A stretch of 64,000 nucleotides of DNA. Origin: Ectothiorhodospira sp. BSL-9. GTDB taxonomy: Bacteria; Pseudomonadota; Gammaproteobacteria; Ectothiorhodospirales; Ectothiorhodospiraceae. A program made the translations under genes and the position numbers. Location of the stretch: assembly GCF_001632845.1 (NCBI RefSeq), contig NZ_CP011994.1:1994001-2058000 (forward strand), read 5' to 3'. Position 1 is the first letter of the stretch. Each line of letters begins with the position of its first letter. Of this stretch, positions 61,671-64,000 are shown piece after piece. The notes under the pieces are model-generated. The model was not told the origin of the DNA. It ran no database searches and was given only the letters and a program-made list of their open reading frames with translations.

Positions 61671-62903
61671 ATGAATCCTCATCGCGACATCCTGCTGCAT
61701 TGCTTCCACCAGGCCCTGGAGGCCGTGAACGGCGAGCAAGTCGTGCGGCGGCAGTTGGCCATCAAGAAGCCGGAGGGGGCAGTGCACGCGGTGGCCATCG
61801 GCAAGGCCGCCGCCGCCATGGCTCAGGGTGCACGGACGGGGCTGGGTGGCCAACTCAAGCGGGCACTCATGATCACTCGCCATGGGCATGGTGATGAGTC
61901 TCTAGCCCATGATGGGCGTTTCTTGTGCCTGGAATCGGATCACCCGCTGCCCGGTGAGGCCAGCCTGGCGGCTGGGGCGAAGTTGCTGGAATTCATCTCG
62001 GCGACGCCGCCCGGTGACACCCTGTTGTTCCTCATCAGCGGCGGCACCTCCAGCCTGGTGGAGGTGTTGCCTGAGGGGATGACGCTGGCGGATCTGCAAC
62101 GGATCAATGGCTGGTTGCTGGGTTCGGGGCTGGATATCCAGGCCATGAACCGGGTGCGTGGGGCGGTGTCCTGCATCAAGTCAGGCCGTTTGCGGGGGTA
62201 TCTGGGACAGCGCCCGGCCGAGGTCTGGTTGATCTCGGATGTGCCCGGCAATGATCCGGCGGTGATCGGCTCGGGGCTGCTCAGTCCGCCCCGGGACTCC
62301 CATCCTCCGCCGGTCCTGCCGTCCGGGTTGTCCGGGATCATCCAGCGGGCGATGGATGCCCAGGTGGGCGGTTGGGCCCAAGGCCGCAAGGTGCCTGTGC
62401 GGGTTTTGGCCACGCTGGAGGATGCCTGTCGCGCGGCGGGCGACGCAGCGCGCAGCCTGCGTTGCCCGGTCACCTTGCATGGAGAATTTCTCCAGGGGGA
62501 AGCGGCTGAGCGTGGCGCGGCCCTGGCGCACTGGCTGAGGCAGGAGGGCAGGGCGCCCGGTGTGCATGTGTGGGGCGGCGAGACCACGGTGACCCTGCCG
62601 GAGAACCCGGGGCAGGGCGGGCGCAATCAGCATCTGGCCCTGGCGGCGGCAAGGGTGTTGTCCGGTTGCCCGAATGTGACCCTGCTGGCCGCAGGCACGG
62701 ATGGTTCCGATGGTGTGACCTTGGCCACCGGCGCCCTGGTGGACGGTGGCACCTGGGACCGCATCCGTGCCCAGGGCCTCGACCCCGACCAGGCCCTGGC
62801 CACCGCCAATGCCCACCCCTGCCTGCAAGCCTCCGGCGACCTCCTGAAGACCGGCCCCACCGGCACCAACGTCATGGACCTGGTCATCGCCCGGGTAGCC
62901 TGA
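61671..62903 (+). CDS. Glycerate 2-kinase (MOFRL family)
   Basis: This 410-residue protein has an N-terminal DUF4147 domain (RDILLHCFHQALEAV; HAVAIGKAAAAMAQGA; LFLISGGTSSLVEVLPEGMTL) and a C-terminal MOFRL domain (GGETTVTLPENPGQGGRNQHLALAAA; AAGTDGSDGVTLATGALVDG). Enzymes of this type phosphorylate D-glycerate to 2-phosphoglycerate (GckA/TtuD). It starts 12 bp after nifQ. A link to molybdenum metabolism is not evident; the order may just be readthrough. Confidence 0.92.
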   Translation: MNPHRDILLHCFHQALEAVNGEQVVRRQLAIKKPEGAVHAVAIGKAAAAMAQGARTGLGGQLKRALMITRHGHGDESLAHDGRFLCLESDHPLPGEASLAAGAKLLEFISATPPGDTLLFLISGGTSSLVEVLPEGMTLADLQRINGWLLGSGLDIQAMNRVRGAVSCIKSGRLRGYLGQRPAEVWLISDVPGNDPAVIGSGLLSPPRDSHPPPVLPSGLSGIIQRAMDAQVGGWAQGRKVPVRVLATLEDACRAAGDAARSLRCPVTLHGEFLQGEAAERGAALAHWLRQEGRAPGVHVWGGETTVTLPENPGQGGRNQHLALAAARVLSGCPNVTLLAAGTDGSDGVTLATGALVDGGTWDRIRAQGLDPDQALATANAHPCLQASGDLLKTGPTGTNVMDLVIARVA

Positions 62904-62914
62904 ATTAGCCTTCC

Positions 62915-62940
62915 GTGGGAGCGGCCCTCGGCCGCGAAGG
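62915..62940. repeat. REP-like GTGGGAGCGGCC element, single copy
   Basis: It begins GTGGGAGCGGCCCTCGGCCG and ends CGAAGG, differing by one or two bases from the arms at 49424-49509. It lies 12 bp after the glycerate kinase stop. Confidence 0.85.
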
Positions 62941-62986
62941 GATTGCCGGTGGCCGCCGCTTCCCATGGTTTGGCATCGGGGCGTAG

Positions 62987-63099
62987 AACCTTGGCGGGGG
63001 GTATGCCCGTCCGCGGGACGCCGTGAATACCTCCCTGTAGGCTTGATCGCCGCATCCCTGCGGCGAACACCCGCTCCCGGCCACACCCCCGCCAAGGTT
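62987..63099. repeat. 113-bp inverted-repeat element with internal hairpins
   Basis: AACCTTGGCGGGGG (62987-63000) and CCCCCGCCAAGGTT (63086-63099) are perfect 14-bp arms. Inside are CGCCGCA-TCCC-TGCGGCG (63049-63066) and a GACGCCGTGAATACCTCCCT stretch typical of intergenic repeats. No coding frame is convincing. It lies in the 512 bp spacer between the glycerate kinase and the last gene; from about 63178 the spacer becomes AT-rich. Confidence 0.75.
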
Positions 63100-63348
63100 C
63101 GGACACTCTGGTGGCTTTCGGTGGGGAATACCCCTTCGCTGCTGAGGGGGTGGTTACGTGGCATGCTTGGGAATTAGGTGTCGATTTTATTTACGGTCAA
63201 AAAGTCGCTTTTGTGATCCGTTTCACACATGGAATATCGCTGCGGCGATGTTTATGACACGCATGTGTGTCGGAATATCTGACAGGATGGGTTTGGTTTT
63301 GTGCGCTGTTTCACGTTTTAAGCTTGGCATGATGCGCTCACCGATTGT

Positions 63349-63364
63349 TGGCAGGCTTCGTGCT
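63349..63364 (+). promoter_or_regulatory. Sigma-54-like promoter of the terminal gene
   Basis: TGGCAGGCTTCGTGCT has the invariant GG and GC exactly 10 bases apart and agrees with TGGCACG-N4-TTGCW at 10 of 12 defined bases. It lies 52 bp upstream of the ATG at 63416. No activator site was identified. Confidence 0.5.
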
Positions 63365-63415
63365 TAATTATCCCCATAAGCCGCTCATGGCCGAACGAAA
63401 CGTGGAGATTATGGG

Positions 63416-64000
63416 ATGATGGCCAGCAGTAAGACGAAAAAGGTGTTGGTGGCGGCTTGTTTGGCTGGGGGTGTGGCTTGGGCTGGGGTTGGTCAGGCGA
63501 ATCTGATGACATATGAGTTCACGATTCAAAATGTCTTGTTTGATATTCCGGATAATCTTGGTTGGATTCAGTCCCGAGTAGGGTTAAGCGCCTTTGAAGT
63601 GAGTGTTGATAGTAGTAATGGGTACTCAGTTCAAAGCATAGAAGGTTTGAATATCTTTGATATTGGTTTAGCATCAGAGCGCACGCAGGGTTGGGTGTCT
63701 GGGAGCGCTAACGTCCCGCTTTCATTTTTGCTTAGTTATTCTGTGGCTGGAGTTCAAAGGGAAGAAAATCAAACTATTTACGCTGCCCTCGAATATAAGT
63801 TCCAGATTAATAATGGGAATGGAAATATAAACTCGCGCAGTTCGTTAGGTCTAACTTGGGGCAATGAGCTCGAAATTGGTGAGAAGGGAAGTGACTTCTA
63901 TCTCAAAATCCCCTTTCAGTCCCTAACCTATGATCATTCTGTTCATGATCTTGCTGGGTATCAAAATGCCACTCTAGTGAGTCGCGATTCGAATTTGAGT
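63416..64000 (+). CDS. Secreted protein of unknown function (partial, 3' end outside window)
   Basis: At least 195 residues are open to the right edge. An N-terminal Sec signal peptide is clear: MMASSKTKKVLVAACLAGGV, then AWAGVGQA before NLMTYEFTI. The mature part is rich in Ser, Asn, Gln, Tyr and beta-branched residues (for example YAALEYKFQINNGNGNINS), suggesting a beta-rich extracellular or PEP-CTERM-like surface protein, but no family is recognised. The end that would carry a sorting signal lies outside. GGAG (63404-63407) is 8 bp before the ATG. Its base composition and codon use are far more AT-rich than all neighbours, which suggests later acquisition. Confidence 0.75.
   Translation, partial: MMASSKTKKVLVAACLAGGVAWAGVGQANLMTYEFTIQNVLFDIPDNLGWIQSRVGLSAFEVSVDSSNGYSVQSIEGLNIFDIGLASERTQGWVSGSANVPLSFLLSYSVAGVQREENQTIYAALEYKFQINNGNGNINSRSSLGLTWGNELEIGEKGSDFYLKIPFQSLTYDHSVHDLAGYQNATLVSRDSNLS

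Follow-up and report, generated by a model that had tools for sequence, protein, structure and literature searches.

The closest described counterpart of the gene reported here is the PEP-CTERM/EpsH system with PrsK-PrsR-sigma-54 control (Haft et al., 2006; PMC1569441). According to the accessible parts of that article, 99 of 167 proteobacterial PEP-CTERM genes have two elements upstream, namely motif 1 (17 nt, with TTTACA at its end) and motif 2 of the sigma-54 type. The spacer between both is described there by its mean (62.8 nt), standard deviation (10.6) and range (32-92) only, and neither "phasing" nor "periodic" appears in these parts of the text. For pepA of Aquincola tertiaricarbonis, the available sections of a further article report RpoN1-dependent transcription, -24/-12 elements placed by primer extension and an involvement in floc formation (PMC9850573). 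A raised content of asparagine and serine together with a lack of cysteine is the published composition of the PEP-CTERM class.

The window, i.e., the whole stretch of 64,000 nt that was analyzed (G000:C1:1994001-2058000), is part of a genome of 3.55 Mb assembled as a single contig. An ORF starting with the ATG at 63416 on the plus strand is open up to the window edge, and reading on for 138 more bases resulted in a protein of 240 aa with the C-terminus SEVPEPGILALMAGGLLGLGFLRRRRPVTVAEAA. This gene very probably encodes a substrate of XrtA (exosortase A) and is transcribed as an operon of its own from a promoter of the sigma-54/PrsR type. The following features were annotated:

61671..62903, plus strand: glycerate-kinase-like upstream neighbor (DUF4147 and MOFRL, from family matches), outside the system
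62913..63148, minus strand: inverted copy of a REP-bounded interspersed repeat, without REP word at its gene-side end
63179..63195, plus strand: distal second copy of motif 1, TGTCGATTTTATTTACG, 18.0 bits, 153 nt before motif 2
63268..63284, plus strand: motif 1, predicted PrsR box, TGTCGGAATATCTGACA, 16.9 bits, 64 nt before motif 2
63349..63364, plus strand: motif 2, sigma-54 -24/-12 element, TGGCAGGCTTCGTGCT, with GG-N10-GC spacing, 51 nt before the ATG
63404..63407, plus strand: GGAG ribosome-binding site, from the sequence, 8 nt 5′ of the ATG
63416..63499, plus strand: Sec-type signal peptide, about residues 1-28 (MMASSKTKKVLVAACLAGGVAWAGVGQA), by inspection, partly conserved in the paralogue at L049
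63416..64000, plus strand: PEP-CTERM protein gene, first 195 of 240 codons, ending at genome position 2058138 (L002:2416-3138)
L002:3194-3429, just right of the gene and beyond the window: direct partner repeat, 85% identical over 241 bp

The reading of the window that had been made from its sequence alone described a Sec-exported, Asn/Ser-rich protein of no recognized family and expected the next genes to decide on its nature. For the window-internal part, no Pfam or NCBIfam family was found at E ≤ 1, in line with that reading, because the tail falls outside the window. It was the next codons (138 bases) that decided; both neighbors of the gene look like housekeeping genes, the downstream one being presumably LpxH-like. 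In searches with the full-length protein, the PEP-CTERM signal that had been proposed for checking was found, with PF07589 (24.0 bits, cut-off 20.7) from Pfam and TIGR02595 (25.1 bits, cut-off 16) from NCBIfam. The match spans residues 209-232 of 240 and comprises the PEP motif, a hydrophobic helix and an Arg cluster near the C-terminal end. Among the NCBIfam matches, the sorting-domain model TIGR02595 alone passes its cut-off. The T9SS-type sorting signal named as the second option did not turn up: there is no T9SS sorting domain among the listed Pfam and NCBIfam matches at E ≤ 10, a search in which the HMMER filters remove most weak matches, and a type IX secretion cargo was rejected.

The body of the protein (residues 29-207) matches no Pfam or NCBIfam family and could be assigned to none of the described PEP-CTERM families. 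Two families were rejected as candidates. The similarity to EDSAP-1 (NF041538) is weak, 37.5 bits over residues 102-232 and far below the cut-off of 100, and the match to floc_PepA (NF033554; 32.5 bits, cut-off 80) covers residues 188-232 and is restricted to the tail, which places the protein outside the PepA family. Like the A. tertiaricarbonis gene, as presented in the available sections of PMC9850573, the window gene is a PEP-CTERM gene with -24/-12 elements.

It is extremely improbable that the product is an ordinary protein exported by Sec that stays unprocessed, with its C-terminal membrane helix serving as an anchor and the tail only resembling a sorting signal. PF07589 is a model of 24 residues whose score exceeds the cut-off by just 3.3 bits, which would suit such an anchor; against it, TIGR02595 is over its cut-off as well and at E ≤ 0.001 matched in 27 of 58 genomes and in 0 of 14 control genomes, XrtA and PrsK/PrsR are encoded in the genome, and a promoter layout of the PEP-CTERM type was found in the DNA independently of the protein.

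One exosortase locus was detected in the genome with PF09721, and its product was identified as XrtA (TIGR03109, 343.8 bits, cut-off 208) with an EpsI domain (L048). The motif AEVCSG is present with Cys 201, and the protein shares 82% identity with its counterpart in Ectothiorhodospira haloalkaliphila and 81% with the one in E. marina, from which the genome was taken to belong to an Ectothiorhodospira. Genes for chain-length, tyrosine-kinase, outer-membrane, glycosyltransferase and amidotransferase proteins adjoin xrtA, and TIGR03007, 03018, 03016, 03088 and 03108 are all above their cut-offs in this exopolysaccharide cluster. EpsB_2, PrsK (TIGR02916, 813 bits, cut-off 300) and PrsR (TIGR02915, 742.4 bits, cut-off 502.6) are encoded in tandem (L047). 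Directly 3′ of prsR, on the opposite strand, lies an ORF for an Rpn-family recombination-promoting nuclease (L047:5743-6720, minus strand; TIGR01784, 59.6 bits, cut-off 52.1).

The N-terminus of the protein is of the Sec type by inspection (K-rich start, hydrophobic core, GQA/NL), in agreement with the export that had been proposed. The mature part contains 9.5% Asn, 12.8% Ser and 0% Cys, compared with 2.6%, 4.8% and 1.0% in nine neighboring ORFs, and the claimed Asn/Ser richness was thereby borne out; Thr, at 4.5% of the body, is not raised, unlike the class average. Features of XrtA substrates that were found are the tail, the Sec N-terminus, XrtA, PrsK/PrsR, the two-part promoter and the N/S-rich, Cys-poor body. 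An AlphaFold model (two-row alignment; mean pLDDT 40.4) places strands between two helices and gives weak support to a body that is probably all-beta. As far as the accessible text of PMC1569441 goes, the window gene is the same as the described system in tail, Sec signal, single-gene arrangement and long upstream region, and an N/S-rich body with few homologues is common to the class and the window protein. The gene is ordinary of its kind, a new protein of a known type.

The promoter has the same layout as in the accessible description of PMC1569441, except that motif 1 is present twice and is imperfect; the spacer is 64 nt compared with the mean of 62.8 nt. The GG-N10-GC spacing of TGGCAGGCTTCGTGCT, as given by the sequence-only reading, was confirmed, and its distance from the ATG was corrected from 52 to 51 nt. 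Compared with TGGCACGNNNNTTGCW, which we take as the sigma-54 consensus, 10 of 12 scored positions match. Six other sites of the window (both strands) also score 10/12, so the sigma-54-like promoter that had been proposed is, as a site by itself, no better than chance; it becomes significant only in combination with the upstream boxes, with which it gives the PEP-CTERM promoter layout.

Motif 1 was learned de novo by EM from the upstream 450 nt of 20 PEP-CTERM genes of relatives, with the own genome left out and the logo of Haft et al. not used. The training set consisted of the 29 non-own loci minus L053, L066, L073 and L079 (doubtful frames or starts) and minus five near-identical orthologues, and the starts of five training genes were picked by hand. 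The resulting motif, TGTCGGnnTTnTTTACA, is 17 nt long, and its two best sites in the whole window (both strands) are the boxes at 63179 and 63268, followed by a site of 10.9 bits. In 2,000 Markov resamples of the upstream region, the best site never reached 18.0 bits and the second site never reached 16.9 bits. The box at 63268 deviates from TTTACA and reads CTGACA. Two of the 20 training genes (L065, L068) yielded no box-promoter pair.

In total, PF07589 is over its cut-off at four places in the genome, the window gene among them. The three other genes each have a box (best-site P 0.0005, 0.0005 and 0.0055) and a sigma-54-like site. One of them, at L049:6784-7509 (genome position 1674784), is a paralogue with 36% identity over the alignment. 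Signal-peptide region and promoter parts are common to both genes and the tails are near-identical, whereas the body of the paralogue is richer in GC (0.545 compared with 0.414) and its in-register box is weak (5.8 bits), with a strong copy 166 nt from motif 2. Beyond the tail, the relatives found are this paralogue and the C-terminal half of a protein of genome G003 (45.2 bits, columns 131-258 of 264), detected in a search of 47 genomes of the order. No full-length relative was found in the 57 other genomes, and a close-relative scan of genome contigs with the window protein revealed no relative.

The distance between box and sigma-54 element was analyzed in 369 genomes of the class with the pattern TGTCNNNNNTNTTTACA-gap-GGCANNNNNNNTGC and, as a control, the pattern read backwards; the spacer was counted from the box end to the T of TGGCA. 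Gaps of 56-86 nt yielded 84 matches in 57 genomes (backwards 1) and gaps of 87-117 nt 14 matches in 11 genomes (backwards 0), three genomes (G011, G051, G057) being also represented in the training set, so that both sets overlap slightly. The 98 spacers, which are not independent events since the sequences are related, fall at 61-66 (47), 71-77 (28), 84-85 (9), 95-97 (10) and 105-112 nt (4), with 0 of 98 at 67-70, 78-83 and 86-94 nt. The best period is 11.1 with R 0.76 (88 values, equal spacers within one genome collapsed), a value that was reached by 0 of 5,000 jittered sets (maximum 0.45). In a search with gaps of 26-55 nt (10 matches in 10 genomes, backwards 0), spacers of 25, 38, 46, 49, 49, 51, 52, 52, 52 and 53 nt were obtained, so the next lower band is present with three strays, of which the 38-nt stray uses the same box as an 84-nt pair. 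It was considered whether the band at 85 nt, the upper limit of the first search, is a search-boundary artifact; this was rejected, as 8 of 8 places have the sigma-54 pattern at 85 nt only. The band has a ninth place, with a spacer of 84 nt, where the pattern also occurs at 38 nt.

It is likely that the PrsR box and the sigma-54 promoter have to keep a fixed helical orientation to each other, the box always lying on the same face of the DNA. The spacers lie nearly all in narrow bands at about 52, 63, 74, 85, 96 and 107 nt, with one helical turn between neighboring bands, and PrsR would be a face-of-helix, looping-constrained activator. The rule predicts functional boxes, including those of the window gene at 64 nt (in register) and 153 nt (auxiliary). 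Other sigma-54 activators are known to depend on the face of the helix, and a rule of this kind was therefore to be expected. It was not found in print among the titles and abstract beginnings listed in a literature search that covered few subscription journals, and in the accessible text of Haft et al. (PMC1569441) the spacer appears as mean, SD and range, whereas it is quantized by helix turns here. With helical spacing, true PrsR targets can be told from the sequence by a simple test, even where the tails are too degenerate for PEP-CTERM models, and a directly testable prediction arises on how PrsR reaches the sigma-54 polymerase.

The same data bear on the idea that a sigma-70 promoter drives most of the transcription and that the boxes are remnants. 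The imperfect sigma-54 match (2 of 12 positions off) and the lack of a single-site excess speak for it; two boxes of 18.0 and 16.9 bits, the nearer one in the main helical register (64 nt), would be hard to keep without selection, and this explanation is regarded as very unlikely.

The downstream 2.1 kb were checked for 40 minus-strand matches (L160-L199) out of 46 from the searches with gaps of 56-86 and 87-117 nt; two own-genome matches, two of G057 (training) and two too close to a contig end were left out. A crude tail rule classified 25 of the 40 as PEP-CTERM-like, which was reduced to 24 after inspection by eye (L161 is spurious), among them 3/3 with a spacer of 85 nt and 3/5 with spacers of 95-108 nt. 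The remaining 16 box-promoter pairs have no recognizable PEP-CTERM tail within 2.1 kb: in six of these the first ORF runs beyond the 2.1-kb stretch with the tail out of view, and others seem, by eye, to precede genes for large exported, TPR or PilZ-like proteins. Judging from these sequences, the PrsR regulon may be wider than the PEP-CTERM genes. IHF-like sites were also searched in the spacers, and 9 of 27 genes, a count that includes near-identical orthologues, reach 8 of 9 consensus positions (2.95 expected from resamples). At the window gene, the best site has only 6 of 9 positions and is not claimed.

With the tail, the signal-like N-terminus, the promoter layout and the genes for XrtA and PrsK/PrsR present, the following course can be proposed. 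PrsK would phosphorylate PrsR on a surface- or exopolysaccharide-related signal, and PrsR would bind the box at 63268-63284, perhaps helped by the copy at 63179-63195, loop the DNA and activate the RNA polymerase-sigma-54 at 63349-63364, with transcription predicted to start about 12 nt downstream of this element. Sec would then export the protein, whose C-terminal helix and Arg cluster would keep it anchored in the inner membrane. On the outer side, XrtA would recognize VPEP, presumably cut there and pass the Asn/Ser-rich, Cys-free, probably all-beta body towards the surface or the exopolysaccharide. A role in the extracellular matrix or in aggregation may be assumed, and by analogy to Aquincola pepA, exopolysaccharide-linked cohesion appears likeliest. 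The earlier idea of a surface-type secreted protein under sigma-54 control is supported by the PEP-CTERM tail, XrtA, PrsK/PrsR and the two-part promoter. What had been an orphan secreted ORF can thereby be annotated as a predicted XrtA substrate whose on-switch is predicted as well, and a small PrsR regulon is predicted for the genome.

The drop in base composition noted near 63178 was confirmed (GC 0.714 at 62501-63000, 0.418 at 63501-64000). The AT-rich stretch is short, as the GC content is back to 0.65 in the first 300 bases beyond the window end. Within the gene, only the body is AT-rich (0.414), with 0.595 for the first 28 codons and 0.704 for the last 36. The foreign look is supported only in part: the gene is absent at the same site in two close relatives; on the other side, the three further genes with a PF07589 match in this genome, one of them the 36% paralogue, are relatively AT-rich too (GC 0.53-0.57).

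Promoter and gene are bracketed by the two inverted repeat copies, and the interval from the glycerate-kinase-like gene to lpxH measures 1.6 kb. It was compared in two relatives: in E. haloalkaliphila (G007) it has about 310 bp with one REP-bounded repeat, and in E. marina (G009) about 500 bp with one repeat and part of a second, both without such a gene. The window protein found no match in eight stretches of the genus around lpxH, the glycerate-kinase gene being nearby in only four of them. The REP word at 62915-62937 is exact; 79 copies with ≤ 3 mismatches (22 exact) were counted in the genome and 0 with the reversed control.

Compatible with its role as an XrtA substrate, the gene could be a recently acquired cassette that moved between two inverted REP-bounded repeats and not a fast-diverged resident gene. 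The body GC content, the flanking pair of inverted repeats with 85% identity over 241 bp, the repeats in place of the gene in G007 and G009 and the lack of a full-length relative in 57 other genomes are in favor of this origin. It is nevertheless regarded as doubtful: the GC content of tail and signal-peptide part is closer to that of the host, a 36%-identical paralogue exists in the same genome, the empty sites would be accounted for just as well if the relatives had lost the gene, the bracketing may be chance given a REP word with 79 copies, and the bracketed stretch contains no transposase-like ORF by eye. If it were true, REP-bounded repeats would be a route for gain and loss of surface-protein genes. 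That every PEP-CTERM gene of the genome lies between REP repeats was rejected, as no REP match was found within 10 kb of the 1675-kb and 3041-kb genes. The repeat is about 240 bp long, has inverted REP words (GTGGGAGCGGCCCTCGGCCGCGA) as its borders and occurs at many places in the genome, and REP words were found several times as plus/minus pairs 213-221 bp apart; it is possibly a REPIN or MITE-like element.

Further box-promoter sites were observed in the own genome. A strong pair of box and sigma-54 site (spacer 74) at 971823-971928 (minus strand; L101:4823-4928) precedes an ORF of 185 aa ending in VPATGSLVLMLGGIAGLAASMCRRRPRDLVPR, which is degenerate PEP-CTERM-like and absent from the listings of the Pfam/NCBIfam genome search. 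A second such promoter (spacer 76) is located at 984827-984934 (minus strand; L101:17827-17934); the sequence behind it looks, by eye, like a decayed copy of the 185-aa ORF with the frame broken and the promoter kept. Furthermore, at L050:7081-7097 (minus strand; genome position 3040081), the box GGTCGAAATACTTTACA (12.6 bits) is combined with TGGCCCGCGTTTTGCT at a spacer of 97 nt. The gene behind it, polysaccharide-export-like and presumably of the Wza type, is divergent from the 3041-kb PEP-CTERM gene, which suggests that PrsR control may extend to exopolysaccharide export. In the own-genome DNA scanned, boxes also occur outside PEP-CTERM promoters. The highest-scoring box (19.6 bits) in the five own-genome stretches scanned, at L049:3007-3023 (minus strand; genome position 1671007), is without a good in-register sigma-54 site, and the first ORF, encoding 232 aa of no recognized kind, follows 508 nt downstream.
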